Source of the DNA: Isoetes taiwanensis
Lineage: Eukaryota; Streptophyta; Lycopodiopsida; Isoetales; Isoetaceae
NCBI GenBank assembly: GCA_021234155.1
Contig: JAJEKV010000077.1
Coordinates: 2,029,802 to 2,093,801, forward strand
Direction: 5' to 3'
DNA length: 64,000 bases
Shown here one piece after another: positions 2,691-43,217 of this stretch (its first letter is position 1; the number at the start of each line of letters is the position of its first letter). Under the pieces are notes generated by a model. It saw nothing but the letters and a program-made list of their open reading frames with translations, did not search any database and had not been told where the DNA came from. The translations under genes and the position numbers were made by a program.

Positions 2691-3145
2691 GAACAGCCGT
2701 GAATGTCCACCTTTGAATTCCAAGCCCAAGGCAATCACACACCAATGAGACAATTCCAGCCCTGATCCGCTCAAGAGTATTACGCACCGACGCCAGAGGA
2801 AGAAATCTCGCAGATGAGGTCAGATCTGCAAGAAATCAAAGCCATGTTGGCAGGCAGGGGAAGAAACAGGCAAGACCAGAATGTGCAACCCCCAGAGGCC
2901 CGCTCTCAACACAAAGGAAAAGAGAAAAAGAGGAGCCGGCGCAGATCTTCTAGCTCCAGCCCAGACAAATTTCTGACTCAAGCTCTGAGTCTGAGGAGGA
3001 AACAGTAAGAACAGCCGGAAGGGAAGAAAGAGTAGCGGTAAAACAGCCAGGCCAATCCGACTACCAAAAGAAGGTCGACTCGGCCTTAAGTAATGTTTGG
3101 AAGGCACGAAAACTGGAACAATTTTTCTGCTAAAACAGATCAGGG

Positions 3146-3612
3146 ATGGCAGCCGAAGCATGGCTAGACGAGATGAGTGAGTACGGAAATGCTTACGGCA
3201 TGAAAGACAAAGACAAGGGCAGGGTAGCCACTGCTAACTTGAAAGGGGCAGCCCGTATTTGGTGGAGGGGCTATGCTAAAGCCCATGGAATGAGCAGAGA
3301 CAAGTGCAGGTTTACAAAGTTCGCAAGGGCCTTCAAAAAGCACTATGTCCCAAGAGAACACAAGTGCCACCAGATGCAAGCCCCACGTGTTGCAAACAGG
3401 GAACAACCGTACGTAAATATATGAAAGAATTCATGAGACTAAGGTCAGATGTGCAAGCTCAAGAAGAGGAGAGAGCTGTGGAAGGCTATGTGGAGGGCCT
3501 GAATGAGGACTACGGAGATAGTCGAGTCCGAACCCGGGCCCGATCGGAAGTAGCAAAGGCCCGAGCCTACAAGGCACGGACCCCTTTAAAAGTGAACCTG
3601 GGCAAGTGGTAG
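3146..3612 (+). pseudogene. Ty3/gypsy Gag fragment, frameshifted
   Basis: Two overlapping frames (3,146-3,424 and 3,304-3,612) together give a retrotransposon Gag-like protein, the structural protein that packages element RNA. The first frame has AEAWLDEMSEY followed by LKGAARIWWRGYAKA, the aromatic-rich 'L.G.A..WW' signature of retrotransposon Gag. The second continues with an Arg/Glu-rich helical stretch (MKEFMRLRSDVQAQEEE). The frame changes near 3,400, so one indel has broken the gene. No intact CCHC zinc knuckle was seen downstream; 3,620-3,850 is only basic and Ser-rich. Confidence 0.7.
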
Positions 3613-4688
3613 GATAAAGGAAAAGCATATGGAGGCTAGAGCCCCGAGGGCAACCGGAATTGCCACACCGCCAAGACACCATACCTCGGAAACCAATGGA
3701 AACAGCCGCAGAAAAAGCAGGTCGCCTTCAAAGATAAAGGACAAGGGGGAGGCTCAAATTATTCAAAGACAGCCAAGCAGCCTCAACTCCATTCCAAAGA
3801 AAAGCGGGCAGGAATGTATAGAAAAACAGCTTGAAGCTTCCTGGTAGGTTTCCAAATGGGGGCATAGAACACACAACCGCCTCGCTCGGATGAATGCAAC
3901 TTTATGAAATGGGAGGTTGGGAGACCCCACGAATAAGAAGAAGAGGAGAACTAATGACGCGACTATATCCATGGTGAGTGTCACATCTTTGCCGCCATAG
4001 ATACGTAAAGCCAAGAGAGTTGCAATTGGGTAATATCCATCCATTGGTAAGATAGCCGCCAAATCCTTTATAGTCCCTCATAGACTATGGTAGTTCCCCG
4101 CAATTTCGCGATCACCAAGGATGGCTGAAATGCTAAAGTTGAAAACAAAGTGAAGTCTAAACCCGTGCCGTGAGTGTTATTAGTGAGCCATCAAAGCACA
4201 CCGCCCAAGAAGAGGGTGAATTTCAATATAGACTTACCTGTATCAATATTGAAATGGGGGCGTAAATCATGAACATAGGAAAATATGACCTCATCATAGG
4301 TATGGAATACCTCAACCCAAAGAAAAGCACAAATAGATTGTGGGGAGCTTAAAGGTAAAGCTAAATAAACCAACGGAAAATCATAGAAATCTCGTGTAAG
4401 CAAGTGACACCTATAATGCAATGCATGTCAAGTAAGAAATTACTTAGATGCATCAAAAGGGAGCAAGTTGCATACATCTTCAAATTAGAACTTCACAAGA
4501 AGAGGCACCTGAAGATAAAGAAGACAAGCCACAAGCTGTGTAGCCAAGTTAATAGAGGAGTTCCATGACTTGTTCCCCGATGAAATCAAGGAGCTTCCGC
4601 CATATAGGGGAGTGGAGTGCGAAATTGCACTTGTGCACTAAGCCCACCAAGAAGGCACCATATAGAATGACGGCTCACGAACTATCGG

Positions 4689-4697
4689 AGTTGAAGA
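4689..4697 (+). repeat. Target site duplication, left copy (SINE)
   Basis: AGTTGAAGA, repeated exactly at 4,924-4,932. It marks the SINE insertion into the gypsy reverse transcriptase. Confidence 0.85.
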
Positions 4698-4923
4698 TAG
4701 ATAGATAGATAGATAGATAGTAGTTTTAACGCCACGCCCACTAGGGCAAGAGATCCAACCGACATGTGACCACACACCACACTACATTGCTTGGTTGGGC
4801 CCCCGCCCAACCACCTTACATTGCGCCTCTGGGATTTGACCCCCAACAGCATCGAAAAGCGAGCTCGGGCGGCCTCAACTCGAGACCACATTGCTAATGA
4901 ACTAGTGTGTTACCACTAGACCA
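4698..4923 (-). mobile_element. tRNA-derived SINE with (TATC)n tail
   Basis: On the - strand this unit starts with an A-box-like TGGTCTAGTGGTAA near 4,921-4,908, has a B-box-like GGTCTCGAGTTG about 37 bp later, and ends in a (CTAT)n tail at 4,698-4,721. It is flanked by the 9-bp repeat AGTTGAAGA at 4,689-4,697 and 4,924-4,932. Removing the insertion and one repeat rejoins the reverse transcriptase peptide. A pol III-type promoter, a short length and a simple-repeat tail are the features of a SINE mobilised by a LINE. Confidence 0.85.
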
Positions 4924-4932
4924 AGTTGAAGA
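4924..4932 (+). repeat. Target site duplication, right copy (SINE)
   Basis: AGTTGAAGA, the partner of 4,689-4,697. Confidence 0.85.
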
Positions 4933-5559
4933 AGCAATTGCAAGAGCTATTAGACCTAGGGTTCATAAGACCTAGTGTTCTCCCGCTTGAAGCCCCCATC
5001 TTATTCACAAAAAGAAAGATGGAAGCTTGAGGATGTGTATTGACTATCGCCAATTAAACAAACACACAATCAAGAACAAGTATGCCTTACCCAGAAAGCG
5101 TAGATGACCTGATGGATCAGCTACAAGGTGCCGTGGTCTTCCAAAATAGACTTAAGGTCCGATATCATCAAATCAGAATCAAGGAGGAAGATATTCACGA
5201 ACGGCCTTCCTCAACAAGATATGGCCACTATGAATTCACAGTGATGCCATTTGGCCTATCAAATGCTCTCAAAGAACGTTCATGAGACTCATGAACGATA
5301 TCTTTCGGGAATTCCTTGACACATTTGTTATCGGTTCTTCGATGACATTTTGGTGTACAACAAGTCCCTAGAGGAGCATATCAAAGATCTGAGAAGAGTA
5401 CTTTGAGAAGTCGAGAAGACACCATCTTTTTATGGTTGTCGAAATGTCATTTCGCCACCGAAAAGAGTGGAATACTTGGGGCATGTCATATCGCCAGACT
5501 CCGATTCCAATCAACCCCGCAAAGATCCAAGCGTTGATTGAATGGCCACACCAAAGAAC

Positions 5560-6340
5560 ATACACGGTGATGAGAAGTTTTGGGCTTAGTAGTGTATTAT
5601 AGAAAGTTTGTCAAGAACTTTGCTAAGATAGCAAAGCACCTTTGACTGACCTCACCAAGGCCAAAAAGATAAAAGACCTGGGTGGCACATGGCAAAAGAA
5701 GGCTCGCTGTGATTCGAGAAGTTGAAGGAAGCCTTAACAACCGCCTCGCCTTAACATTGCCCCGGGATCCAGAAGGACAAACTCCGTTGCAACCGATGTT
5801 AGCAAGATCACTTATTAAGAGTGAGCGCCTTTTAATGCAAGAGGAAAGAGTCGTAGAGTATGCATTCACCAAGATGAACGACGCAAACTCGCCAGCACCA
5901 CACATGATCGTGAGCTATTGGCGCTGGTAAGAGTTTTAAAGATCCGAGACACTATCTATTGGGAAGAAAGTTCCAATTAGATACCCACCACCGTAGGTCT
6001 ACAAGACATCTTCACGCAAACCATTGTTGAATTTGAGGCAAAGAAGATGGATGGAGTTCCCCGGAAGAGCACGGTCGAGATTGTGTACAAGCCGTGGAAA
6101 CTCAATGTGGTTGCAGATGCTCTGGCCAAGGCACCCCTTAACAACAAGAGTGCATTGCAATGCCATATCAACACTCACCAATGAGTTTGGCAAGAAAATA
6201 GAAGAAACGTTGCCAACGGACAAGGACTTCCAGGAAGTATGGGCAAGCCTTTCTAAAGAGGCAAGATCGGACAAAGAGAGAGAAGCCTTCAAACATTTTA
6301 AGAAGGAAGGATTCTCATTGATATTCCTATGTAATATGGC
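5560..6340 (+). pseudogene. Ty3/gypsy RNase H and connection region fragment
   Basis: The peptide begins with 'GLVVYYRKFVKNFAKIAK' near 5,582-5,640, the standard link between reverse transcriptase and RNase H in gypsy elements, and continues through a frameshifted RNase H. Near 6,110-6,135 a frame reads as the degraded 'ADALS' end of RNase H. The last readable frame ends at 6,356. Nothing resembling an integrase zinc finger or DDE core follows. Confidence 0.75.
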
Positions 6341-6360
6341 CCCATCCAAGCCATAATTTC

Positions 6361-7085
6361 CTCGGAAGAATAATACCCTTCGTACAATTTCTTAAGGGAA
6401 CATCATAAAAGGAAATTTCGGCTCTCCACATGGTTAATGGGAAACTCAATATAGTGCAAGCATTTCCACAATAATTCCATCTAGGGAAAATATGATGGCA
6501 ATATGTAGGCCATAAGGTAATTTACAAATCATGTCAAATATGCAAATATGTAGCCATACATCCAAAGGTTGAATTCTAACATCAAATCAGCCCTAACCGT
6601 ATGTATTCTTCTATATCTTATGCAAAGTTGAGTGGGATCCCCAACTTAGTCTCAAAATTTTCCAAGGTCTAATTACCATGCTATAATTTATAGTGCAGCT
6701 TAACGTGTCGGCCTTTAGACATAGAACAACTAAGTTAAATAGATTTCAATGTTGAGTCATGCATTAAGCAATGCCATTTGAAGTTATTGGATGTGCCTAG
6801 AAAATGGAAGTGGCTATAAGTTAATGTATTGCATTACTAGGTCCAATACTTAACTGTTAAAATGGCATTTCCCCTTGGTTAATGAGGTTTTATTTAAATG
6901 TTTGCTTTTAAACACACTTCTAACTAATGTGAGCAAATTGAATCACAAAATTTGAATCTCATTTTGAGAGCCTTGAAATAACATTATTATCTTCAATATT
7001 CATTACGAAAGATGTTTTGCATTAAATCAAAATAATCTAAGTTCTGAACATACAAAAATTGAACTGTGTTTGAGCATGGGGAATT
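6361..7085. other. AT-rich sequence without recognised features
   Basis: AT-rich, no open frame of note, no repeat structure seen. Confidence 0.5.
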
Positions 7086-7089
7086 CTAA

Positions 7090-7310
7090 CCTCTGTAGTT
7101 TAAGGAGCCCTACTCCATGGCCGCGAACACAAGGCAACAAAATGCAGGTTCAAATTCTGCATGTTCTAGCATGTATAGACGAGTTGGGGAAGAGAAACGT
7201 TCGCGGCGGCCCCCCCCGGCCCCGCAGTTGTTTTTGTTGATATTCGTGCAGAGCATCCAACAGTGCCGAGGAACCCTAAAGACATACGTCCGTACATGTT
7301 TATTATAATA
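7090..7310 (+). mobile_element. Possible SINE-like unit
   Basis: TAGTTTAAGG at about 7,097-7,106 fits the pol III A-box pattern (TRGYNNARNG), and GGTTCAAATTC at about 7,147-7,157 fits the B box, about 50 bp apart, slightly more than in a tRNA. A GC-rich run of G and C (7,203-7,226) follows. No target site duplication or clear tail was found, so the boundaries and the assignment are tentative. Confidence 0.35.
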
Positions 7311-7329
7311 TGTAGCACAATAACAGGGG

Positions 7330-8360
7330 GTTCTAGGGGAACAATTCCTGAAACTATAGACCATATATCCCTAAAGCAATTGAATGGGTTGTTATAAAAA
7401 AACATAGATTCAAGATAAAAAATAATCACATTAGCTCACTGGGTGTATTGATTAAAGTAGTCTTATTAGAACATTGAGTTATTTTGATAGAGGTTTAAGC
7501 CCCCCGTATTTCATATTCTAAAATCTTAGGCAAAGACCTATAGAGGTTCAATATTCCCTCAAAACCTTAGACGAACTCATATTTCATATTTCAAAAGCAT
7601 AGGCGCCTTCAATAATAAATGACTATAAGCGAAACGAGAGGTGCCCAGAGGCCCCAACATACGATCTGGGTCGTAGGGTCGACGAATCCGACGGTTGTGG
7701 TAGTCCAGAGTGCACCTCGATTATATGTACAATGAGCTTTACAACCTTTGGTCTATTTCCGTATTTGAAACTAACAGTTAACAAGAACTTGCTAAAAAAT
7801 GAGTCGCGCTTAACAATGGCCAAGATCACCCAAAATTGACATCCAATGGTCCGAGCCTACTAATGAACAAGTGGGAGGTCTGGGGGTTTTAATTCAATGG
7901 TTCAATTTCCTGATATGTGGGATGTCATGTTCAATGGTGTAATATGTAATATTAATAATATTTATAAATGGACTCTGCATATGTAAAAAAAAATTTTTTT
8001 GCCCCTCCGAGGTTTAGGGGTTGTTTTGTAGAAGATGAAATGATGTAGTGGAACTACTTAGAAAATGGAATGCGGAATATGAAACAATATTAAGATAAGG
8101 TAAAATAAAGATTTTTTAGAAGAACATAGAATGCGATCATTCATATTATCTGTCAATCATATTACTAAAAATAATGGATGTATAGAATCATATTAAGAAT
8201 AATAATAAATATATAGACCCATTGACATGTGATCATATGCTTGAGAAACACCAATGCTACAAATCAAATCACACCACTAGTTGTGGCTTCCTATTTCTCT
8301 ATTAAATCAATAGAGACACTTGAGAATAGAATACACTTGAGAGCATTTGGTATACAAAAT
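7330..8360. other. AT-rich sequence without recognised features
   Basis: No gene, RNA or element could be supported. A-run/T-run stretches occur around 7,986-8,000. Confidence 0.5.
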
Positions 8361-8362
8361 AG

Positions 8363-9577
8363 TTGGAATGAAATTATAAGAAAAAATGACATTAATAAAT
8401 TCAAAAAATGGGTGTTGAACCACTATGATAATGTAAAATAGTCATAGATCTAACACAACAAGGTTACACCTATAATTGACGTTCATCAAAGAGCCATAAA
8501 GACACATTTATCCCATAACACCATAATAAAATAATGATACGACAACATTAAAACTCATGGGATTGAACCATGATTACAAAACCATTGGCCACCTGTCATT
8601 GTAAATTCAAGTGCAAGTAAATATGCCAAGAACCTCAAAACAAAGAGAAGTTGATTACCCTGGAGCAAAGGGAATACGAAAGATTGCACATGGTTTGCAA
8701 ACTCTAGGTGTTTTTTGACACTAGAAAAAAAGTAAGCCTCTCATATGAAAAGAAGCGGCCGCAATAGAAAGTAAGCATGTGCCTTGCATGGTGTTAGTAA
8801 AAGAGGAGCTCAACATGCATGCATTGCATGTATGTATGTTATGCATGCACTATGTGTATACATTGTGTGCATGTAATGCATGCACGTGTGCATGCTAAAA
8901 CCATAGGTCGGAATGCAAACAAACTAGAAATACACTATATGCTCTAAAAATTACATACGACAACACAATCATATGCAAACCATAGCGAAATGGCCATATA
9001 TTTATACGTTTTACGTGAAGCAAAATAATTGTGATGAAATTATAAGGAAGAAGGACATCAATAATTCAAAGAATGGGAGTTGAATCCACTATAGATAGTT
9101 ATAGAGCCAACACAACAAAGCTACACCTATAATCAATGCTTATATGGGATTGACCCATGATTACAAAACCATTACCCACCTATCACTGCAAATTCAAGAG
9201 TAACTAAATATGTCAAGAACATCAAAACAAAGAGAAATTAATTACCTTGGAGAAAAGAGAACATGAAAGATTGCACACAATTTTGCAAATTCTAGGCGTG
9301 TTTCGATGCTCCAGAAAAAATAAGCCTCTCATGTGAAAAGACTAAGTAAGCATGTGCCTTACAAGATGTTAAGTAAAAGAGGGGCTCAACATGCATGCAC
9401 TGCATGTATGAATGGTATACATGCACTATGCATGTAATGCATGCACATGTGCATGCAAAACCAAAGGGCGAGAATTCAAACTAACTAGAAATATACCACA
9501 TACTCTAGAAATACTACTGACATGCCTTCCCACAAATACAATAACACAATCATATGTAAACCATAGCAAAACACAGC
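8363..9577. repeat. Tandem direct duplication, two ~0.6-kb copies
   Basis: Copy 1 (about 8,363-8,986) and copy 2 (about 9,029-9,577) align along most of their length with small indels, about 666 bp apart. Shared landmarks include the sequence before 'attacaaaaccatt' (8,573 and 9,160), 'agattgcaca' and 'aagcatgtgcctt'. Each copy ends in a CATGCATG-rich palindromic stretch (8,813-8,900 and 9,388-9,458). I see no coding potential. It may be a duplicated piece of an unknown repeat. Confidence 0.8.
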
Positions 9578-18966: not shown

Positions 18967-18978
18967 GCGGGATTTGAG
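18967..18978 (+). repeat. Flanking direct repeat, left (putative MULE target site duplication)
   Basis: GCGGGATTTGAG, exactly repeated at 27,908-27,919. MULE target duplications are usually 8-11 bp, so the true duplication may be nine bases (GCGGGATTT) with element ends that happen to start GAG. Confidence 0.65.
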
Positions 18979-19040
18979 TGTAATTTTTTTGTGGTTTTTT
19001 GTCGCTGGGCAAAATGGGCTTTTTTTCAGACCGAATAATA
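18979..19040. repeat. Left terminal inverted repeat (putative)
   Basis: Reads inward through TGGGCAAAATGGGC, a T run, then CAGACCGAATAAT. The reverse complement of the right end has TGGGCACTCTGGGC, a T run, then GAGACTAAGATAA. The match runs about 60 bp with gaps and is T-rich, so part could be compositional. Confidence 0.6.
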
Positions 19041-20041
19041 TTATATGCAACAAAATAGAAAATAACATTGGCAAATTGCCTAAAGAGTTAAATAAACAGA
19101 ACAAATAATATTAATAGACTGAGTACTCAAACAACGCTTACTATAATAGTGCTATAATATACTAATAGTAGATGAAACACAAATAACATTTATCCAATAC
19201 AATAATACCCTAAGCTAGAATAACATCCAAAGACGAAACTGGAAACATTGGTTGTATCGTTCGTGAGATCAGCCAAAGGATCCCTCCCAAGCACCTTAGT
19301 GTATATGTAGAACAAGTGCTTGCAAGGAACAAATTGCTTCTTGTTGCTCCAATGCATGAAGTCCGGACGGTGCTGGCCCGGGTTCACGTTTTATGCTAAG
19401 CGTGTACACTTTACCTTCTCTTTGGATTGTGTAGTTGACATGCCTCCTTTGAATTATTGCTTTCCCCGCCACATCATCGACCACCATATCTTTACTTTGC
19501 TCAAGGCGCACCATCCCAAATTTGGTCAACTCCTTCCTTTTATTCACACGTCTTCCATCCCTTTGTCATGCGGACACTTTCGAAACATCATTATGTGATG
19601 TTTCCTAAACCGCACTACCGCAGTGAATGGTCGGTTGCATGTGAATCCCATCTAACCGGTATCCTTTGTTCACCAAGAACTCTATTTCATCCGGCCAGCA
19701 TGATTGCTTCCTCTTGCAACCGGCCATAGTTGTGGTCTTAGAGGTGGGTGCAACGAGAGCCTTATCGGGTACCATGTGCACTTCACATTATCCGGACAAA
19801 ACCAAACTAATTGTTCCCTGTGATCCCCCCGAATGTCGATTCCATAGAAGCTAGGTGCATAAAGAGAAGACAATCCCTTGTTAATTTTCTTGTTACATTT
19901 CCTTCCATTTTCAGATGTCATTCCCCGACATTTAACTTGGTGAAGAAGTTGTTGTTTTCTCCGATAGCCCAAAAAGTGTTGTGAACATCTACTTGTGATT
20001 ATGTATATAATCAGGCAGGATGTCGACATCCTTATTGCTAC

Positions 20042-20179
20042 TAAGGTTTTTCCCGAAAACCCTTCGGTGGGGTTTTTAATCCCGGTAGTATCGCTGCCGC
20101 TCTCTCTCTTTGTACTTGGGTCCCATAGGCGGTTGGTCTCTCGTGGACGATAAAATCATATTCTATTCTATTCTATTCT
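20042..20179 (+). mobile_element. LINE/SINE 3'-end fragment with hairpin and (TTCTA)n tail
   Basis: On + it has a hairpin region (GGTTTTTCCCGAAAACCC, then GGGGTTTTTAATCCCGG), the shared block GGGTCCCATAGGCGGTTGG, then GACGATAAAATCATA and repeated TTCTA. The same order, reversed, ends the LINE at 22,262-25,130. It interrupts the transposase gene. Confidence 0.75.
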
Positions 20180-21135
20180 CCATGAATCAAGATGTAGCAA
20201 AGAAAGCGATTTCGACCACCGGGATCATCTAAGCAACTCTTGGAACATTATGTGCTTGCTTATCAAGGCGTCGTTCGTCTTAACCCGTGTCAAGTTCCCA
20301 TCATTTGAGACTTTTTTTTGCTTCTTGGATATAGTTTGATCATTTCCACTGCTCACGAAACATGGATACATGCCATGTCGCCGACTTCACGATTAAAACA
20401 TTCGGTGAAGAACTTTTGACTTAATACCACTGCTAAGTTGCCCTTGCAGTTTGGTAAATAAAGTCGAAATTCCAGGTCCAGGACCAACATAGTTGTGCTC
20501 TAAATATGATTTGTACCTTGTGCTCTGCAGTAATGCTTCAGTAAGGTCAAAAAGACTTGCATCATATAATGTTAAGGTTCTAGTGTAACCAGTTGCAGCT
20601 AACCAACTCCCATGTCTGGATTCTGACAAATTTGTGTCAGGCATATACATAGCTGTGGATAAGTCTGTGCTGGCCTTCATATAATTTCCCCATCTACTTA
20701 TGGTGCCACCATGCTAACCATGAGGACAAAGAGTTTACATCACTTGGTGAAGCCTTGCCATGCCACCAATCTATGATTGATTGATACATCTTCTCAGCAT
20801 CATCTATTGTTTGACACTCTCTCCACTTTCTACAAAGCTTCAGATGTTCTTGTCTATATTCTGGATATATAAGACTCTTAGTATGGCGTTGTAGACACTG
20901 TTCAAAATGGAAAACACAAGATCTTTCTTTTTCAGTGTGTATTTGGCCATTATAAAATACTTCTCTAATTGCTGTCCAATTGGCTTGGGCCTCATCTGCC
21001 ATGAACCCGTGAAACTCTGCTGGTGGATAGTTCTTACTAGTCATGACCTTATTTAGCTTGACCCAAAATTTCTTTTGAGACAAGACATCTTCTGTTTTCA
21101 TGTCACATACAGCTATGGTCATCAAACCTCTAACA

Positions 21136-21221
21136 CTGTAACAATACGAAGTATTCAAGATATTATATATTGACTTCAGTTAAATGGATACTACCAAATG
21201 CAATATATAAATAATACTTAC
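21136..21221 (-). other. Intron in the transposase gene
   Basis: On - it starts GTAAGTATT and ends TGTTACAG. Removing it joins the CCC and AC of exon 1 to the T of exon 2, giving an in-frame Asp-Pro-Thr-Val and restoring a continuous conserved peptide. Confidence 0.85.
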
Positions 21222-21381
21222 GTGGGGTCATATACATGGCAAGCAAGGGTTGTCCAACCTTGAATGCGCTTCACGTGATCAAAATGCACCCATGCCTTTG
21301 ATAAATCACCAGATGGCCACATTCTGTTTACTGTGCCTTTGTTTTGCCTGTGCATTTATATTCTTTTTTAATTGCAGTGTT

Positions 21382-24300
21382 ATGGTAGAAACTAGGCGCA
21401 GCTCAAACAATTTTGTGTACACCTCCTTAGCAACTCCAACTAGGAAGAGTAGAGCTTTGCGTAAATCCAAAGATGATGGCCTCGAATTAGATACTATCAC
21501 GAGTTAATTGTCGCAAATGTGGATATTGTTCACATTGAAACAATTCGACGAGAGGTTCCACCAGCAGATGAATTAGATGATGTGCAAGATACAGATACAG
21601 TGAAGGCGTAAAACAGTGAAGGCTAACGATGGCAAATCTTCCAAACGAAAAGAAAGGATAATGATGATGATGCCATAGAGTTTCCAAAGAGTTTCACGGT
21701 ACAAATGATTTGTAAACATTGAAAGAACCGAGGATAGTGCATAAGACTCCACCCCTTTGATTCCATTATGTAGGATCATGTTAAATCAAGGCGGAGGATT
21801 GTAAGCAAAGAAGCAAAGGCTCGAGAGAGACATTGCGATCTTGTGACGGATATGTGATGGAAAAAGGTGGTTTCTTTTATCGATAACAACAACAATGGGT
21901 GGATTTTGTCATGTCACTTAATGCAATAAAGGCCGGATGGGGTCAATATTGGCAAGAAGAGAATGATATGTTTGAGGCCCAACTTGCAACAAATGAAGAT
22001 TGGAGTGATCTTCGTGGCAAGATGTTCTTATCTTCGCGGATGGGAATCATCGTGACCGATGCATGGATGCGTGAGATTCGGGATAGATATTCATTGGTGA
22101 GAGAGATGCACTTCTACGTGCAAGCTTCATTTGTGCAAATTGATCAAGAAAAAGAGTCCTGCGACTCATCCAGGGCAATGAAGAGAATTAATGAGTATGT
22201 ATTGCATTATTTCTATGCTAATCTTGTATGCTCTATATGTTATATTAAAAACCGTCGATGTTTATAGAATAGAATAGAATAGTTTTTTTATCGCCCAATC
22301 GAGACCAATCGCCTATGGGACCTGGGAAGGAGCTAAGCTAAAGAACTTATTATCGCCGGGTTAAAAACCCCCCTCGAAGGGTTTTCGAGGGAAAACCGCG
22401 GGCGATAATAAGAATGTCATCAAACCTGCATAAGTATACATCATCATGAAATAAATGTGTATGTACATGTCAAGCGTGCCCGAGGACATAGCTGATCTCG
22501 CGATGTCCATGACCTCTCGGTATGATCCTAGCATCCGTGACGGATGCCGCGGCTCAATGTCACATGTAGCGGCTGGTGCCCGACCAACTCAAAGATAGCG
22601 TCCGGATTTGATCATATGCCGGGCAACTTTGAAGGGTATGAGATTCATCCTCAACGACTCCCATTTAAGATTGACGTGGCGAACCCCGCCCCGACGCGGG
22701 CGCACCAATCCATCCGCCTGCCTCACCGGAAGATGATGTGCCCAATGCGAATGGAGGCAATGAGTCCGCTTTTTCATGGGCAAGTGGGTGCGCAGTAGCA
22801 TTGTGGGCCTCGTTCAATGTGGGATTTATGTGGCGCCGGTAGTGTGTCTTTGCCTTGACTGTTCAAGGGGGCGGCATCCCAAAGCTTGCCTGATGAAGCA
22901 AGCGCCAAGATATTGCCTCAAGCTATGGCGACCGCCTGCTTGCACATGTATGCACCTCCGTGCTCTCGCACATTCCATCTAGCCATCCATTGAGCTCTCT
23001 TTTCCCTCCAAAGATGCCTTGAGGCGTTAGGCCCCATTGCCATGATATAAGCTAGTTTTGGGAGACGAGCATCGGCCCATGTTGACCACCTTACCGAAAT
23101 AGACAATGTGGGCGATCAAGGGGGCCCTCCAAGAGGCAAGAATCCTCGTTTCGCAGTAGAATTTGATATGGGACTGTGGACTTCACCCCTAGTGCTCGTA
23201 CCAAGAAGGCTTTTCGCAGACTTGCCCAAGTCATTCCAAGTAGCGAGGGATACCACGGGCCCCATACTTCAACCCCGTATAAAAGGACGGGCTCTACTAA
23301 GACTTTGAACAGGTGTGGACTGATGGGTCCAATCATACAACTCCGGCTCTATGACTATTGTTTTGCATTGCATATAGTGCTTTCCACTACCGTAACTTCG
23401 TGAGCCGTATGGATGTGTCCCAAAGGCATAGTAGAGGGACGGAAACTCCACTCCCAAATATTTGTATGTGGATGCTACTTCCACATTCGCCCTCGGTAAC
23501 GGAAGGAGGGGATCCTCGGCCGTCGCGAAGATGATATGAAAACCACCTTAGTCTTGGCCAAGTTGACGTGCATATCGGCCGCTTGACAAAATGTGTCCGT
23601 GGCATCGAGATGTCGTATGTCGTGGCCGGTGTGTAAGCTAGAGGTCCACATCATCGCGATATATTAACCGCTTGATGATCCGGTAGAGAAGGTGAGCCCT
23701 GCCGCCCCATTATCGCAAAGCCGCCTCTCCAATTGATCAATGTAAAGCCCAAACAATGTTGGGGAGAGAGGGCATCCCGGCGAACCCCGATACTACTATC
23801 AAATGGTTGGTTTGTCTACCGCAACCGACCGGAGCATCTTTCATAAAGCCTGTACACTACATTCTCGCAAATCTACCGGAACCCCAAATTGTCGTAATCT
23901 TGCCCATAGTTTTTCCCCGAGGCGCGGTGTCAAATGCCTTTGCAAAATCCACGGCAACAATATAGATCCCGACGGGCGGTTCCTCTTTGTCTTCAACCGA
24001 GCTTCGCAATGTGAAGATGTGGTCAATGGTTGAGTGTCGGGTCTGAATCCCCGCCACGGGTGAGGGCCCAGATATCGCCTTTTCCGCCTTGGCCAATCAG
24101 CCGCCGAGAATCCCAAAGAAGCAATTTTGCAAACACCGAACCGACCATGATTGGTTGGTAACTGGTCGGTCGCGGGTCACCGCCTTTATAGATGGGAACA
24201 ACTCGCTATTGGTCCATCGTGACGGGAAGCCTTCCGTAATGCCTTGTTGAACAAGGCAACAAGATCGGTATTATGGACGGCCCTGCCCACTTAAGCAATT

Positions 24301-27300
24301 CCTGCCGCATGCCATCCGTGTCGGGGCTTTCCCATTGGCAAGGCGCCGTAAGCCTTGTTCCACGCCCTGAACTGTGGATTTCCAAAGACCGGGCCTTCTT
24401 GCGGGGGTAATGCATGTGCACCCCGAGGGTCATATAGCTGTTGCAAGTATTGCCTCCATCGCCGGAGTGATGTTCCCCGTGGGCTATGCGGCTTTCTAAG
24501 AACCCTTCGCCGTGAAGGTCCCGGGTGACGTTCCGGGAGATAAAACATTTCCCTTTGATGTGCCGCAATGTACCCGGCTTTTTAGCTTTAAGGAAGACGC
24601 TGCATTGTCCGGACCGCATGTGGGCGAAAGCGTGGTCCGCGGACTTGGCGGAGCAAGCATTTGTGTTCCTTGCACTCGCATCAAACCATTGATTACGTGG
24701 GAAGGTTGTGTTCCTCGAGGTCCGTCCGCGGGCGCTTATCCCAAAGCATCTCTCGCCGCTAGCCCTAAGCACATCGGTCCCGGTCGTCTGCATTTGCTCT
24801 AGTGTAGGATATTGCAAAATTTCGCCAGTCATCTATAAGATCCGGGCATAAGCCCCGCGATGTTCATAATCCAATCGGTGAGGCATGTGAGGAGTCGTGG
24901 GCAATGTGGGTTCGCACAACCCCGCCAAGCCAACTTCAAGTAAAGTGGTAAGTGGTCCGGTCGATCTCTTCATCCCTATTAGTTGTTCCCACTGGAAGTG
25001 CTTGACGACATGCATATCCTCGCCAGCGGGGCAAAGACATAGTCCACCACACTAGATCCTCCCCCCTGGTTTTATGTGAAGGTTGAATGAAACCGGTATA
25101 GTGAGGACTACACTTAAAGACATTCTCTATGGGGTGTACTGGGGATGACAAACTCTAACTTGACCAACTTCACTTCTAGTATTCCATTGGAAGAATTGAA
25201 ATGTAGTAGAGTGCAAGAAGCCAAGACTCACGAATGGCTAACCATGGTATCCTTATACACGTTACATTTTAGCCCGTATTCTCTATCGTGTACCTTAACT
25301 TGGAACGTATATGTTATGAACATTGTGTTTTTGTTCGTTATTCTTTTTAACATTTCGGTTTTGCTCTATGTATGCAAATTCAAAAATAGAGAGAAATTGA
25401 GGAAGCCACTTCCAAGTATTCGAAGTTACGGTCTAGAAGAAGCAAGAGCAAAAGCGTAAAAAGAGATAAAAAAAGTGGGTCACAAAATGGGTAAGTACTT
25501 GGCAATTGTGAATCCGTGATTTGGGAACAAATTGGGTAAATTTGGTCACTAGTGGAGTTGGAAAATAAGTACATAAATTTGATGTTTGAAAAGTTGTATG
25601 ACATGACAAAAGCCAAAGTACCAAACTCCACAAGGGATCGCTATCTGACTTGGATGACATCCTGGTACAGCCTATTATTCGGCAGCTACAATATTCCGAC
25701 CAATGATAGGGATTTTCATGAATGGGTTAAAAAGGAGACATGGTTGGAAACTCTTCTAACCAAGTCACGTGAAACTTTTGATGCAATTGTGTTAGATGAG
25801 GGCATTACAATCCAACCACTGGGAGATGATTTGCGATGTGGTTAAGACAATTTAAGGTAAAGAATGTGGGAGTGATATGTTTAAAGCTTACGAGAAGAAT
25901 ATGTCCCGCAATAAAGAAAAGTAGAAGATGCCTTTGAAATTGAAGGCTTCGAACGAAGTCGCTATAGGGTAAATGATTTTTACATTTATATGCATAGGAT
26001 TTAAACCTTCACTAAAATACATGTAGAAATATCCATTAAAATTGTTCTTTCCATTTTCGTGTATTTCAAGTATTGCCTCGAGAAGAAATATATTGACGCA
26101 TTGCCATTCCGCCGCAACAATGGGTTAAAGGACGGAGAAGACCTCCATGTACTCAGCCAAAGGAAATCATGACAGGAAAGGAGGTTTATCTGAGTGGGAA
26201 ATTCGTAATTGTCCTTGGTGGATTGATTTCCCACCAGGCAAATTTCCAGACGAAGAGGGAGCGTTGTTCAAAGAGATGACTGATGGTAGGTTGTCAGCAG
26301 GTGATGTTGATATTGATGCTGTGGATGATGGTAATCTTCGCGTCAAAAGGCGAAGAAAGCTTGCATTACCAAGAGATTCAAAGAAAGAAGTTAAGAAGAA
26401 CATTGTGAGTGAGACTACTTCCATGGATCACGGTTCTAGTGCAGAGGAGCCACAAATGCAGGAAAATGAGGATTGTGGTATCCAACAAGTTGAACGAAGG
26501 TATGCTAATGTTTCTCTGTCATTGATTTGTGCTGATGTTTCGGACATTGCTGCCACAATGAACTCTACTCAAGAGTCCATATTTAAGTCCATTAGAGAAT
26601 TTGGAAGGAAAGTGGCAATGGAAAACGCATACACGTGAGGAGAAACAAAGTGGACGTAAAATGGGGAGCCGATGTCGATATTGGACTTCCCTACAAGTGA
26701 AAACCTACGATGGGTCACTTGGTAGTTCCTGAATGGAACTTATGTAGCAAACAGGTTATTGATGATGCTTTCACTATAGCCACACTTTGTGTTGATGATT
26801 CTGGCTTTGTGGTATGCTTTTGTGGTATTAAGCAATTGAAGATTTTGGATGCTGCTGCAAAGAAACGCAATCTTGAAAGGCAACGCATGTACTTCATGGT
26901 GCAGAAAACTCCATGTGAGGTAACTCATGATGCCTTTGGAGTCTTTGAGAATAGTTGTTACTATTTCATTGTCTACACCAGGATTGGAGTTGATGTTGGG
27001 AAGATCAACTCAGTGGTGTATTCCATGAGGGAATTGAACCAAAACAACAATGTTCTTTTCAATGTGCTAGCTGAAAAAGATAGGTTGCCAGTGCATGATG
27101 CAAAACAATCAAGATATGGCTTGGAAAAATCAACAAAAGTGATGGAATTTATACTTCATTCTTTTTGTGTGACGGGTGGCTTTGCATTGGACTTGCTTGC
27201 TGCTCTATGATGGAAGCATGCGCGTTAAAAGGTGTTCATTACTTTGGAACTGAGAAGGATGAAGTGTTGGTTCAGTCTGTGCTTGCTTTGCAAGGTTGTG

Positions 27301-27398
27301 GGGCTCCTTCTATTGATCTTGACAAATCAGATGAGAGTGGAGATGAAGACGACATTGAGAATGTTCCAGTTCAGGATGTGGACGAACCGTTGGACTAG
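21382..27398 (+). pseudogene. Putative beta-class amino-methyltransferase gene (DNA N4/N6-type), broken
   Basis: Coding pieces on + appear to belong to one gene: a basic N-terminus MVETRRSSNNFVYTS...RKSRALRKSK (21,382-21,507) that could be a nuclear signal, an acidic linker, 21,899-22,216 (LNAIKAGWGQYWQEEND...), then after a LINE 25,145-25,250, 25,552-25,845, 26,147-26,635 and 26,650-27,398. The last part has the motif order of a beta-class N4-cytosine/N6-adenine methyltransferase: ADVDIGLPYK where DPPY is expected (about 26,662-26,698), GFVVCFCGIKQLKILDAAA (26,790-26,850), KSTKVMEFILHSFC (about 27,131-27,171), then a frameshifted motif I ('FALDLLA' plus 'SMMEACALKGVHYFGTEKDE', 27,180-27,265) and an acidic C-tail. 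Probable donors occur at 22,217 and 25,251. Stops at 26,699 and 27,208, the altered DPPY and the LINE make it inactive. MT-A70-like RNA methyltransferases are an alternative. Confidence 0.58.
22262..25130 (-). mobile_element. LINE (non-LTR retrotransposon) with (TTCTA)n tail, degraded
   Basis: On - the sequence contains LINE reverse transcriptase landmarks in order: 'DGMRQELLKWAGP' and 'LPVTMDQ' (about 24,206-24,330), 'GFRP..STIDHIFTLRS' and 'IVAVDFAKAFD' (about 23,930-24,050), a catalytic YxDD reading Y-R-D-D (about 23,646-23,657), and the C-terminal 'KVLVEPVLLYGVEVWGPW' (about 23,240-23,310). It ends with a hairpin (about 22,349-22,405), GGGTCCCATAGGCGATTGG-like sequence and repeated TTCTA at 22,266-22,282. 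Every frame is broken. The 5' end near 25,130 is estimated from where the methyltransferase-like coding resumes. It appears to sit in an intron of that gene, just after a GTATGT donor. Confidence 0.85.
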
Positions 27399-27846
27399 TC
27401 CGTGAGTTTTTCAGTTTCATACTTTGCTATTAAGCTTTTGATCTTTTTATGCATCGACATATTTACTAATATATCTAATTCTTATGCAGCACGTTTAAAT
27501 TACCGGTATATGCAGAAAGTGAAGCTCGATATATGTCCACGTACATGATTCCTATACATTTGAAGGACAAAAAAAGAAAAAAATGCAAATTTGTAGATGA
27601 TGAGGCACAACTAGCATAGAGTGCATACTTTTGACTCTATATTTTGTTGTTTATGTTATTTCACTTATGGTGTCCACCACTCTGTTTGTCAAATTCGTTT
27701 TCTTATGATAATAGAAGCTATAGGCATGCATTTGACACTAAATTCAACGTACATTCTTCAAATGTCAAATTTCATGTTAAGAAAGGTAGCTAGTTTGGGG
27801 CTGTTTGTATGCTTGGTTTCAATTTCAAGCGTTCAGATAAAATCTT

Positions 27847-27907
27847 ATCTTAGTCTCAAAAAAGCCCAGAGTGCCCAAATAAAAAAGCCCATGAAAAAGA
27901 TTTCCCC
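27847..27907. repeat. Right terminal inverted repeat (putative)
   Basis: Its reverse complement begins GGGGAAATC, a T run, ATGGGC, a T run, TGGGCACTCTGGGC, a T run and GAGAC, parallel to the left end at 18,979-19,040. It lies directly inside the right 12-bp repeat. Confidence 0.6.
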
Positions 27908-27919
27908 GCGGGATTTGAG
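27908..27919 (+). repeat. Flanking direct repeat, right (putative MULE target site duplication)
   Basis: GCGGGATTTGAG, the partner of 18,967-18,978. Confidence 0.65.
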
Positions 27920-28016: not shown

Positions 28017-28146
<130 letters not shown>

Positions 28147-29430
28147 TGTGTTAGAAGTGATCATTACTTCACTAGATTTTTGCGACAACATCGCCCAATA
28201 ATATCCACGGAGATCCCTGTGTGATTTCTTGAGGGATATGATTGTGATTAGGCTATTTACCGAGAACTAACGGTGTGGTATCAAAGCAAGTAGATATGCT
28301 CAAGAAGGTGTTGACGGAATTTAAACTAGTGTAAAGCACAAGTAGGTACAGAGGAGGAGGAGGAGGGAGGCCGAGGAGGAGATAAGATTATTAGATGATA
28401 ATGTGGCATTGGGGCTGCCAAAGGCTGCAGTGCATTTGAGTTATTGATCAGAGAAACAAGGAGCAGTTCAATCTGCAAGAGGTAAATTGCGTAGGCTTGA
28501 ATTGGCCCTTTCCAGATCTAGAATAATATTTTAGGGATCAAGGATCAAATTCTTGTTGAAAACAAGAATCAAGTATCAAGTATCAAGTATTGTATTGTTT
28601 TAAAGTAGCATTTTTGATAGATTGTGAATCATGACTTTGAAGTATGATTTAAGCCACTTCACCCTCGAGTCAATGCTAGGGCAACCCTCCCGTCAAAGAC
28701 CTTGTTTTTGTCTTTCATATGACATTTCATATGACAGAATGTTGATCAATTTGAACCCTTCAACTGACATACAAAAATTCAGTTGATGGAAGACCATATT
28801 TCAATTATAAACTTAGAACAAAAAGGTAAGTTACATAATAGTAACTACTAATATAAATACACAGTTAAAAAGGTTAAGAGTAGCAGATGTGGGACTCTGG
28901 TTAATGTCCATTGGTGAATCTCGATGACAAAGACAATGACGGCCTCTCTACTCGGCGAAGGTTTCGCTTTGATTGAAACATGGTGGAAAAATGAAGCCAC
29001 AGAGCACTCTGATTGAAACATGGTTGAAAAATGAAGCCACAGACTCCGTCCACAGAGTCCACACACAGATGCCGTTTTGTGAAAAAGGGGGCGAAAGAAC
29101 CAAAGAAAAAAAAAGCTCGAAAGCATTACTGGGCTTATCTTTGAAAGAGCCGGTGTGCACCGGCGTGAGCGAAATGACTCGGATTTCCCAAATTGGTGGA
29201 TTCGTTGAGAAATGGGAGAATGTAGGAGGAATCGGGAATGTAGAAGTTTAAAAAACAAAAAAAACTTAATGTTACCTAATTCATTATTCTATTAGAGGTA
29301 AGGTACATTAACTCGATATGCCTATAAAATAACCCTAGTACTTATACAAAAATGAAAGGGAAATTTATATTTGCGACCTTTCAAATGACATAGACATTTT
29401 TTTCTTGCCTTTCTATATGACAGGCAAATT
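28147..29430. other. Non-coding, with repeat fragments
   Basis: No gene recognised. At 28,274-28,286 TGGTATCAAAGCA resembles a primer-binding site for initiator Met-tRNA (usually TGGTATCAGAGC), but no flanking LTR could be shown. The segment 28,597-28,720 has an inverted relative at 49,138-49,255. A 40-bp block around GATTGAAACATGGT is duplicated at 28,972-29,040. Confidence 0.5.
28597..28720 (+). repeat. Dispersed repeat, copy A
   Basis: Contains AAGTATGATTTAAGCCAC, then GGGCAACCCTCC and CCTTGTTTTT. The reverse complement of 49,138-49,255 carries the same blocks in the same order. The identity of the repeat is unknown. Confidence 0.75.
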
Positions 29431-39254: not shown

Positions 39255-40226
39255 CCAGCAATTGGAATGCTATCTATAATTTCTACTGCTGTGACACTTG
39301 CTATTTCTCCTGCATTAGTCTTCTGATCATGTTCTGTCATGCTTCCACAAACCAACAATGTATTGTGATACTCATTGACATCACTATTGTGTTATGTACA
39401 AGTTTAATTTCCAATTTCCATGAGACTAAAGTTGAGCATGCTTCCCTACATTAACGTCTACTAATTTTGACAAGCCCTCTTAGTTTCTAGAGTCCAAAGG
39501 AGTAGAGGCAAACCGCTGGGTTAGAAAGCGGCACAAACCAGGAAGTAGCAAAAACCAGGTTTCTATTTAATTATTGGTGAAGGTTTTTGAATAAGTTATA
39601 AAACATTTTAGTTTCTTTGATCTCTATAAATATTCCATTCTATTCTATTCTATTCTATAAATATAGATGTAGTGGTTTGGCAGGTTAATTTAATTTAATC
39701 TAATAATAAGAACAATATTGAAATGATTATCAAAATGGCCATTTCCATTGTCATTTATAGATCAGAATTGCAGATTTTTGCGAGTTGAATTCGTTCTAAG
39801 TGTGAATTTGATAGGTTCCTTCATTTGCAGCCATCTTATTTTCGAAATCATTGCATGCATCTTGATTCCACTACATTTGGAACTTCTTGACAAACGAGAT
39901 GCTCCAGGTACAAGCCCTTTTGAGTGATCAAGCATTCAAATGTCTTTCTTTTATGTGTGGTTCAACTGTGGCCTCAATGTTTCCTTTAGTATGGTTCTTA
40001 TGTAATTTATGCTAGCATTTTTTTAGGGTAGGTTCACAAATTCAACTGTCAAATATAAGAAGTAATGATTCTGGGAAAGGACTCGCAAGAGACACAAAAC
40101 CGGGCTTGTCATTCATCACAAAGCTAAAGAAGATACAATGTTTGAAGACAGAGAGGGTAGCCCACCATAGAAACAATATCGGACTACCATTAAAAAAAAG
40201 AAATGTGCACAGCAATATAAAAGGGT
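39255..40226. other. Intergenic; contains an isolated (TTCTA)n run
   Basis: No gene recognised. An isolated run of about five TTCTA units at 39,632-39,657 may be the last trace of a LINE 3' end of the family seen at 20,042, 22,262, 30,567 and 57,188. Confidence 0.5.
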
Positions 40227-40312
40227 AATGGCGACAACTTCTCATCGGGATAAAACCTCGGCCTTTTCGGGTTTTCGAGGAAAACCCTAATGAGAAATGG
40301 TCGCCAACAACC
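40227..40312. repeat. Long imperfect hairpin
   Basis: GGCGACAACTTCTCAT pairs with ATGAGAAATGGTCGCC, enclosing TAAAACCTCGG ... CGGGTTTTCGAGGAAAACC. The inner part resembles the hairpin of the LINE 3' end at 22,349-22,405, while the outer stem differs but still pairs. Confidence 0.75.
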
Positions 40313-40789
40313 TTGAATGTGTTGCCCCGGAAAACCAAAGAGATGAGTTGATGGCTAACACAAAATATAAAGGTGACCCTTAAGAGGGCTAAGCCTCGCA
40401 AGCAACACACAAAAACCCCTAAAAAATACCCGCGGAATGGTTAGAGAAAAGCAAACTCATGCCCTCACGCAGCCAGGCGGGAAGGGAGGGAAGCAACGAA
40501 GAATAGAAGAAGAGTGCCGCGGAGAAGACGCCGATAACCGGGTAGGTGAAAGAGGAAATAGCCTTTATATAGTTTCGCCCTTTCCAGTAATGGCGATCCG
40601 GATGGCTCGGATCGATGCTATTCTGGGAAAGGACTCGCAAGAGACACAAAACCGGCCGACTACCAAAGAACTTCCTTAACTATAAGCCGAGGGCGAAAAC
40701 CCCGCAAGCAACACAAAGAACTCTAAAAAAACACCCGGAATGGTTAGAGAAAATTCAACATGTAGCGTAAAAGAGAGCATCACCCCAAT

Positions 40790-41080
40790 AGGGTGGAGAA
40801 TAGCAGAAGACACCCAATCCGTGGAAACCAATTACGAGAAAGAAATAGCGCGCCACCCTCGAGGTGGAAATAAACAAAGATCACCCGCAGGTGGAGATAG
40901 CATCACCCAACGGGTGGAAAACAATTATGCATCACCCAACGGGTGGAAAACAATTACGTAAAAAGAAATATGCATCACCCTGGAGGTAGAAATAAACAGC
41001 ATCACCCACAGGTGGAAATAGCATCACCACCATGGTGGAAAAAAGCGTCACCCAAATGCAACAGGTGGATAACAATCATG
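40790..41080. repeat. Short interspersed CATCACCC/GGGTGGAAA repeats
   Basis: Repeated units of the form GCATCACCCAACGGGTGGAA, an imperfect palindrome, occur about every 30-40 bp with variable spacers such as ACAATTA. Related copies appear at about 43,545-43,700. Confidence 0.8.
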
Positions 41081-41344
41081 TAAAAAGAAATATGCATTGC
41101 AAAATAATGCTAGACAATGTTATTTACAACATCACTAAAGATGATAAATAGACATTAATGCCACCATCACGTTGGAAATAAACAGCACCACCCAACAAAA
41201 AACGGTCCATAAAAAAACGCGACATCTAGAAAAAGATAAGCATCAATGTAAAACCATAAAAAAGAACATCAAGAACATAAAACAAACTAAAAGTGGCCAT
41301 TAAAATGTGCCCAATATAACAAAATTGTATATATAACAACGTAA

Positions 41345-41660
41345 GACATGCCATGTCTAGATAAAGAGAAGCATAAAAAAGGAAAAAATGATCCAATAGA
41401 AACCCATGTCGCAAAATCTCAATGTGGTGCCAAATGCAATATGCATCATATCCAGATAAAGTTAAATAGCAACACCATGCACAAATTAGAATGTGCCCAA
41501 TACAAGACCTTGTGGACAACAAACGAGGACACCCCATATCTAAATAAAGAGAAGCATAAAAATGAAAGATAATCCAATATAAACCCATGTCGGAAAATCT
41601 CAATGCAATACAAACGCAATATGCATCCTATCTAGATAAAGTCAAATAGCAAATATGCCA
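41345..41660. repeat. ~183-bp tandem duplication
   Basis: 41,350-41,500 and 41,532-41,660 share AAAGAGAAGCATAAAAA, AAACCCATGTCG, AAAATCTCAATG and AATATGCATC blocks in order. Weaker copies extend on both sides, so this is part of a decayed array. Confidence 0.8.
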
Positions 41661-43110
41661 AAGATATGTAATGAGCATACCAAATAGAAAAAGATCCGCT
41701 ACAAAATGCAAAACCCTCAAAAGATGCCTAGAACCGCCAGTGTGGAGTTGGGTCGCAGCACATAGCTGAGGAGAAGAAGAGAGAGCCACCACCCCCCAAG
41801 CAATCGGATAGGATAAAGGACGAGAGAGGAAAGAGAGGAGCGAAAAGAGGGGCCACCGGAGGCGCCGGGCGATAGTGACGGGCCGTGCATGCGAACGGGC
41901 AAGCGAAGCTAAAGAAATCATATGAGCACGGGCAAGGGTCTCGCCTGAGTGGCAGGGGAGAAAGGGAACTGTGGTCCTAAGAGTCCGTTCAAGCGTGAGG
42001 GAAGCTTCGCGATTGACGACGAGAGAACCGCCAGAAGAAGAGCCGAAAAGCCGTGGGGAAAAGCGAAAGTTGAAGAAGAAGAGCCAAAAACGCCCGCTAT
42101 GGAGGGCCCGCGATCAGCCAATGACCAAAAAGGGAGGAACATTAGAGAACAAAAACAATGAAAAGAAAAGGACGCCGCCACGATGATGAATCAAGGAAGG
42201 GCCCAACATAGTTGACCGATTTGAATACAAATGCCGGACCAAGTCCGTGAATGGGGCTACGGACCAAGTCCAAGAATGTGGCTATTATCCTTCCAACCCG
42301 GGGGCCAATATCTAAAGGGAGATAAGTCAACAAAGGAAACCCTTCATCATGGATCCCCAAAAAGAATAACGATAAATAAGAAGGAAGAAAACAAGTAACC
42401 GAGATAATAAGGCAAAAGAAAAAACTTACGATAGGGAATGCAAAAATGCATAGACATAAAGATCAACGAGAAACATGGAGGTGTTGAGTAGAGTGGCACA
42501 CCACGAAGCGAAGCGCGAGAGGATGAGGACCGCCAAGAACCGTGAGTACCTAACCTCAACATGTGGACCCCCGTGATATCAAGCAAAAAAACGGAGGAAA
42601 CGGAAAGAATGATAAAAAACTAGGGGCTAAAAGAACATGAAAAGTCAACCATGTCTAATAAAAGCAACGTCTCTAAACTTACACAATGAGTATGTAATAT
42701 CATATATAGGGAGCAAAGCTATGCACTAAAAAATCAGCCTATCATCCGAACATGACAAAGTGGAGCTAACTAAAACAAAGAAGCTCCCAAATCCATAAAA
42801 TTGGTACACCTGGACAATATCACCCGGCCACCCATGTTCAAGAATAGAAAATATAACTTCATGAAGCAACAAATAAGTGCGCTTAATAAAGTGAACAAAG
42901 GAACCAACAAACACTAGAGCTCCCCCGATGATCATGCCAAAAAGAAGAATCTTAAACACAACCCCCAAATATTCAAAACCCAAGATCGGACCAAACCAAA
43001 TATAGAATATACATATAAGAAATTTAGCCACAAAGGAGAAAGAGGTGGAAAAGATGTCACAAAAGACTTGAATGGAAATGAAAAAAAGTCGCAAAAAAAT
43101 TTTAATAGAA
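41661..43110. other. Repetitive A/G-rich sequence, no gene
   Basis: Purine-rich on +. Long - strand frames here are rich in Phe, Leu and Ser because of composition and show no family motif. Confidence 0.55.
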
Positions 43111-43117
43111 CGACAAG

Positions 43118-43217
43118 AGGGAGGGGAGGGAGGGGGGAGAGAGAGAGAGAGAGGAGAGGGGGGAGAGAGAGAGGAGGGAGAGAGAGAGAGGAGGGAGAGA
43201 GAGAGAGAGAGAGAGAG
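43118..43217. repeat. (GA)n/(GGGA)n purine tract
   Basis: A run of GAGAGAG and GGGAGGGG about 100 bp long, purine-only on +. Confidence 0.95.

Follow-up and report, generated by a model that had tools for sequence, protein, structure and literature searches.

Does a transposon of a vascular plant carry, beside its transposase, a gene for a DNA-modifying enzyme of its own? The question is raised by a stretch of 64,000 nucleotides from Isoetes taiwanensis (GenBank assembly GCA_021234155.1, contig JAJEKV010000077.1, positions 2,029,802 to 2,093,801; hereafter the window), in which an initial annotation had placed a Mutator-like element (MULE) enclosing a transposase gene on the minus strand and, head to head with it on the plus strand, a gene with motifs of the beta-class amino-methyltransferases. 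The copy in the window is a degenerate relic and the answer comes largely from its relatives. In many families of this genome, the head-to-head arrangement of such a transposase with a gene specifying a beta-class amino-methyltransferase fold, here called the accessory gene, is strongly supported.

Recurrence of the gene pair

The genome, of 1,658,258,908 bases and 1110 contigs (the published assembly comprises 204 scaffolds plus 909 contigs, 1658.30 Mb in all; PMC8566536), was searched with the transposase piece and the methyltransferase piece of the window as queries. The best 150 of 654 and the best 150 of 423 candidates, respectively, were scored, so that the counts of pairs are lower bounds. 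A methyltransferase match lay within 10 kb of 42 of the 150 transposase matches (two of these 42 belong to the same element), where random placement would give 0.27. The neighbour was upstream and on the opposite strand in 41 cases, and downstream on the same strand in one. The reverse count revealed a transposase match within 10 kb of 44 of the 150 methyltransferase matches, and the paired methyltransferase pieces were 27% to 100% identical to that of the window. The structural pairing that had been proposed from a single copy holds well beyond it. An unrelated gene nested in a degenerate transposon could, with the nested insertions described below, give the appearance of the window copy taken alone; 42 neighbours where 0.27 are expected, 41 of them in one orientation, together with the copies L029 and L030, refute a chance neighbourhood, to which we attach a negligible probability.

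L029 and L030 (sampled loci bear such numbers) have long open frames, and in both the two genes are enclosed by the same ends. The predicted frames of L029 are, for the transposase, 5979–7136 and 7559–9268 on the plus strand and, for the accessory gene, 3722–4585 and 1452–3722 on the minus strand; its ends read GGGGGAATTTTT and GAGTGCGACTTTT, with inverted repeats that agree at 79.7% over 59 nt. The L030 element spans 1192 to 9104; the accessory gene is predicted to occupy frames between 4956 and 1758 on the minus strand, and the transposase frames between 5488 and 8865 on the plus strand. Both copies, like the window, show GAGTG at the end nearer the transposase and GGG(G)AA at the opposite end.

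Several counts speak against a two-gene element. No listed methyltransferase match was present within 10 kb of 108 of the 150 transposase matches (best 150 of 654). Among 20 copies of the window family, each fetched as a 10-kb stretch, accessory-gene sequence was found in nine (L009, L010, L011, L015, L017, L019, L021, L025 and L028), while the other 11 had none within the 10 kb read. One of these 11, L014, has a methyltransferase match 10.6 kb away; five more (L020, L022, L023, L026 and L027) share a break of the transposase near window position 20998, have no accessory-gene match in 10 kb, and are probably deletion derivatives. L009 and L015, with both ends in view, retain parts of the accessory gene minus the methyltransferase domain.

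The transposase

Target-site duplications of MULEs measure 8–11 bp, often 9 (PMC6446971), and duplications in keeping with this were found in the window (GCGGGATTT), L009 (CTTTAATAG, 9 bp), L029 (TGGCATAAGG) and L030 (CGAATGGCA), while in L015 the two repeats match at 7 of 8 bases. Terminal inverted repeats, likewise characteristic of MULEs, are present in the window (73% over 41 nt) and in L029, and the ends recur in L029 and L030. The Pfam SWIM model scored 19.7 bits against a cut-off of 19.6 in one of four proteins (L031), stayed below it in L030 (16.2 bits) and was unlisted for L029 and for P0001, the one relative of the transposase found beyond this genome (on a contig of 4.1 kb; 34% identity over 99%). 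In a scan for a MULE-type DDE domain with E allowed to reach 5, no Pfam MULE model matched the transposase proteins. A resemblance to the D..CxxH and E boxes of MULEs is visible by eye in MADEAQANW...CxFH and TN.SES.H.

The accessory protein

The N6_N4_Mtase profile (cut-off 26.7) was exceeded in two of the four copies scanned, L030 (37.1) and L033 (29.8), barely missed in L034 (26.5) and not reached in L029 (16.7). The structure model has the fold of the beta-class amino DNA methyltransferases, and among the motifs IV comes first, followed by X and then by a glycine-rich motif I. Judged by this model, the accessory protein is a member of that fold with a predicted, non-canonical active site. 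Taken together, the statistics of pairing, the sequence profile and the structure model establish a large set of MULE-type cut-and-paste elements with two divergently transcribed genes, one for a SWIM-finger transposase and one for an accessory protein whose C-terminal domain has the methyltransferase fold.

The active site itself argues against an enzyme of the usual kind. Motif IV reads D[LF]PT in all 18 readable loci, never DPPY or SPPY, so that the catalytic pattern (D/N/S)PP(Y/F/W) is missing and catalysis is doubtful. This tally comprises all 15 rows of an unselected alignment plus L011, L021 and the window; in the last two, motif IV was located by a pattern permitting D[LFP]P[TY], and a row that this pattern gave for L010, on the other strand, was treated as a chance match. 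The G-x-G of motif I is retained in 12 of 15 readable loci (L043, whose C-terminal part lies in other frames, was omitted), and the motif has degenerated in L034, L035 and L036, which also weighs against the reading proposed below.

Purifying selection was seen in the methyltransferase part, which speaks against a passively captured fragment. Since captured fragments are frequent in MULEs (PMC6446971), a host or bacterial gene fragment carried as cargo in the style of Pack-MULEs had to be weighed; the recurrence of pairing, orientation and spacing across families whose methyltransferase pieces go down to 27% identity, along with that selection, led us to reject passive capture as very improbable.

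Relatives of the methyltransferase elsewhere were sought in two protein searches, which gave none at E ≤ 0.001 (4732 and 6943 candidates), and by tblastn, which gave none in phages or viral contigs. A DGNHR box in the N-terminal part recalls ParB by eye and suggests a resemblance that is the sole hint of its kind: scans with Pfam, PHROGs and NCBIfam gave no ParB match, no ParB was among the matches of the N-terminal profile to PDB sequences, and hhalign of the N-terminus against four ParB sequences returned a probability of 0.2% (0.04% for the unrelated control A2). The structure model of the N-terminal part was unusable (predicted local distance difference test, 41) and was set aside.

Palindromes between the genes

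At least two palindromes centred on GGYRCC lie upstream of the accessory gene in most of the sampled families. The region between the genes contains six repeat copies around GGCAACGGTGCCGTCCCC in L029 and three occurrences of TCGGTGCCGA in L028. The word CGGTGCCG, derived from these two copies, was found 26 times in L009–L047 against about 2 expected from base composition, and every one of the 26 sites is located either between the two genes or on the upstream side of one of the two (L012 and L013 have no accessory gene in view, L047 no transposase exon); 22 are not independent because they belong to the window family. The pattern CGG[CT][GA]CCG, which preceded the analysis of three further families, occurred three times in L049, once in L050 and not at all in L048. 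In the last, a 26-nt repeat built around a palindrome is present 12 times, and six of these copies read TATGGCGCCATA; the core was then generalised to GGYRCC.

The 14 noncoding stretches (17,878 bases) contain 43 palindromes of the form N-GGYRCC-N', with complementary outer bases; gene sequence totalling 34,011 bases contains 7, and the part of the window beyond the element 15. Nine of the 14 stretches exceeded all 200 shuffles, and L029 exceeded all but one. The generality of the association is diminished by the failure of the shuffle test in L030, which has 0 sites, and in L013, whose count is reached by 36 of 200 shuffles, by weak outcomes in L045 (8 of 200) and L046 (7 of 200), and by the widening of the palindrome class after part of the data had been seen. 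In an earlier test of 12-mers with one mismatch (20 shuffles each), the best counts were 4 in L029, 3 in L030 and 7 in L028 against shuffle maxima of 3; this test was weaker than the palindrome count and its top words differed from the palindromes.

Six of the 14 stretches come from the window family, and L046 and L048 overlap in one element. Their limits are approximate, and that of L049 (1–600) may hold the first ~110 coding bases; those of L012 and L013 represent the upstream side of the transposase only, no accessory gene having been seen, and those of L045–L050 were read without the transposase 5' exon. L044, with no match to the 5' part of either gene and no site, was left out of the count. 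The gene-sequence control for L033, L034, L036, L038, L039 and L041 is the whole ~2-kb gene stretch, introns included.

The form of the site was recorded family by family. At least two sites each are found in the window family (mostly TCGG..CCGA), the L029 family (ACGG..CCGT), the L047 family (AACGG..CCGTT) and the L048/L046 family (TATGG..CCATA). L049 has three AACGG..CCGTT sites, one of which (at 503) is possibly coding, and L050 has one AATGG..CCATT and one AACGG..CCGTT. For the L030/L045 family, the count is zero in L030 and one in the stretch of L045 covered. The outer bases thus differ among some families and coincide among others.

A second, pyrimidine-rich array (TTTTACTTG...) lies between the genes on the transposase side (L028:5057–5268 and L010:5155–5406).

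Possible function of the accessory protein

We regard it as probable that the window holds a degenerate copy of a MULE-type element with two divergent genes, the accessory protein of which is kept for recognising sites of its own family and for methylating, or binding S-adenosylmethionine (SAM), there. The protein, rather than the transposase or a host factor, would recognise the candidate palindromes of its own family; at these sites it would write N4-methylcytosine (N4mC) or N6-methyladenine (N6mA) or, given D[LF]PT, occupy the DNA as a SAM-binding pseudo-enzyme; and the transcription of the element would be switched on, tuned or shielded against silencing by the host, as VANC does for VANDAL elements. 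Under such self-recognition, the outer bases of the palindromes may diverge from family to family alongside the protein.

That the element marks its own DNA had been suggested in the initial annotation. In its catalytic form, in which the D[LF]PT protein would write N4mC or N6mA at the GGYRCC palindromes beside its own gene, the suggestion gains from the palindromes upstream and loses from the non-canonical motif, and we consider it possible but doubtful. A catalytically dead protein, that is, a SAM-binding, sequence-specific anti-silencing or autoregulatory DNA binder like VANC that methylates nothing, is a plausible alternative that we entertain tentatively. It would account for D[LF]PT standing in place of DPPY at all 18 readable loci, with D, P and T retained, and for the location of the palindromes upstream of the accessory gene, and it has a precedent in VANC, whose targets are short motifs repeated in the noncoding DNA of its own family (PMC10398659); the G-x-G kept in 12 of 15 loci and the purifying selection are more than a DNA tether requires.

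The accessory gene could also be a second transposition gene like maize mudrB, which is apparently needed for integration (PMC6446971), with the methyltransferase fold as a scaffold that binds DNA during integration or excision. Divergent pairing would secure the co-expression of two such genes. A transposition complex assembles at the element ends, and the palindromes were found between the genes and not at the ends (which had no systematic search for binding sites); we judge a role of this sort unlikely.

Should own-family recognition with methylation prove true, a family-private mark would separate the promoter of the element from host silencing by 5-methylcytosine. The finding makes it testable whether eukaryotic transposons manage their own silencing by DNA modification of bacterial type. 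Because the families differ in the protein and partly in the candidate target site, specificity should be readable from natural variation. Nanopore reads went into the assembly of I. taiwanensis (PMC8566536), so that the raw data, if they were kept, could be searched for modified bases at the palindromes.

The element in the window

The element occupies 18976–27907 (8.93 kb) and has imperfect terminal inverted repeats at both ends; its features are collected in Table 1. The inverted ends and the flanking direct repeat of the initial annotation were both found again, the former as 41-nt arms (18985–19025 and 27858–27898) with 73% complementarity and the latter starting at 18967 and 27908. The length of the repeat had to be corrected from 12 to 9 bp, since the element starts with GAG and GAG by coincidence follows the right copy. 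GAG is assigned to the element since it is present at 11 of the 15 other left ends: the left end, beyond what chance would give, was found again in 15 of the 20 sister copies, as GAG/TGTAA in 11 (L019 after a one-base alignment shift) and as GGG/TGTAA in L016, L020, L022 and L023. Eleven of the 15 have unrelated flanks. The remaining four, L016, L020, L022 and L023, share a nearly identical flank (TCATT.CAGAGGGG) and so are not established as separate insertions; the flank may represent a longer end in a subfamily, or the four may be copies of a larger repeat.

Table 1. Features of the degenerate MULE-type copy (positions in the window)
Feature	Position	Strand	Basis
Left target-site duplication GCGGGATTT, 9 bp	18967..18975		End comparison with sister copies
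Left terminal inverted repeat (transposase side), GAGTGTAATTTTTTTGTGG...	18976..19025		
Transposase 3' remains with SWIM-finger region, degenerate	19262..19939	-	tblastn, L030 transposase as query
Nested insertion, ~0.2 kb	19991..20188		Sister alignments stop near 19990, resume near 20189
Transposase catalytic-region remains	20237..21134	-	49-64% identity to L030 transposase
Deletion junction	21321..21332		2.1-2.6 kb present here in L009 and L011
Accessory gene, first coding part (MVETRR...), degenerate	21386..22195	+	
Nested insertion, ~2.8 kb, LINE-like by eye	22266..25070	-	Sister-copy alignments
Accessory gene, middle part	25366..25833	+	tblastn
Methyltransferase domain remains, motif IV region DFPTS	26144..27395	+	
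Right terminal inverted repeat (methyltransferase side), inward reading GGGGAAATCTTTTT...	27858..27907		
Right target-site duplication GCGGGATTT	27908..27916		

The two genes are not intact neighbours. Remains of both are indeed there, on the strands given, but two insertions are nested in the element, 2.1–2.6 kb are missing between the genes and the methyltransferase frame is broken. The smaller insertion is missing from all 16 sister copies aligned across the site, and the larger from all four (L009, L019, L021 and L028), with L009 as the uninterrupted counterpart. For the larger one, labelled as resembling a long interspersed nuclear element (LINE), Pfam gave no family for five of six open reading frame pieces, and for the sixth just LysM14_C at E 0.036, under the Pfam cut-off. 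This LINE-like insertion has an AGAAT-repeat end, an inverted copy of which lies in the smaller insertion. Compared with L009 and L011, the material lost at the deletion junction is the transposase 5' exon or its remnants and the noncoding palindrome region, which the window copy consequently lacks. Frameshifts near 26680–26700 interrupt the methyltransferase frame close to motif IV, and a short deletion near 27200 takes out most of motif I.

Beyond the element, a long GATA microsatellite was noted at 28017–28136, ~100 bp from its right end, as were two direct repeats of 37 nt each (28967–29043; 95% alike, spacing 40 nt). A strong AT skew of 0.40–0.49 extends over 6 kb at 40001–46000, which is possibly one long retroelement.

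Comparison with known systems

No MULE with a DNA methyltransferase was found among the listed matches of the literature searches, the scope of which left out most subscription journals and all preprints. To that extent the initial annotation was right in regarding the pairing as undescribed, but MULEs with SET domains are listed in a survey, and both algal transposons bearing similar accessory genes and MULEs equipped with anti-silencing genes have been published. The combination of a MULE-type element of a vascular plant, many families, a uniform non-canonical motif and gene-side palindromes was not found described in the same literature.

DIRS retroelements carry Dam-like enzymes. SET is a protein-lysine methyltransferase domain, which acts on proteins, not DNA, and has a different fold. 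SET domains occur in 14 members of an oomycete MULE group, MULE-Phytophthora_1, reported in a MULE survey the main text of which uses 'methyltransferase' and 'methylase' 0 times (PMC6446971). The elements described here share with MULE-Phytophthora_1 and with MuDR (mudrA/mudrB) the possession of an extra domain or second open reading frame, and 9-bp duplications and SWIM fingers are likewise found in several MULE clades (PMC6446971). Retrotransposons with cytosine DNA methyltransferases are also mobile elements bearing their own DNA methyltransferase; unlike the present gene, theirs specify C5 enzymes and belong to retroelements, a different transposition class (PMC5890265). The N4CMT of bdelloid rotifers (PDB 8s9m) is described as a host gene that silences transposons and has a catalytic SPPY (PMC8885841), whereas in Isoetes it is the transposon that bears the gene, and the motif is D[LF]PT.

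By analogy, VANC is the closest functional parallel, the sites in Isoetes being candidates only. We know of no methyltransferase fold in VANC. It lifts silencing and binds short motifs repeated in noncoding DNA of the VANDAL family to which it belongs (PMC10398659). An accessory gene and short noncoding repeats that vary by family are common to VANDAL MULEs and the present elements (PMC10398659, PMC13317346); unlike those of VANDAL, the candidate sites here are palindromes with a common GGYRCC core.

The closest structural parallel, again by analogy, is the accessory gene of the Ectocarpus transposon Sola1-1_Ec32, which specifies a ParB-like and amino-methyltransferase protein of 1104 amino acids said to resemble transposon proteins of green and red algae (PMC12477816). 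In both systems, as far as that element has been described, the gene lies on the strand opposite to the transposase and its product has an N6/N4 amino-methyltransferase domain and a separate N-terminal part. The Isoetes elements differ in their MULE-type transposase, as opposed to Sola1, and in their host, a vascular plant rather than a brown alga; and where Sola1-1_Ec32 is a 21.5-kb family, they form many families of ~8 kb.

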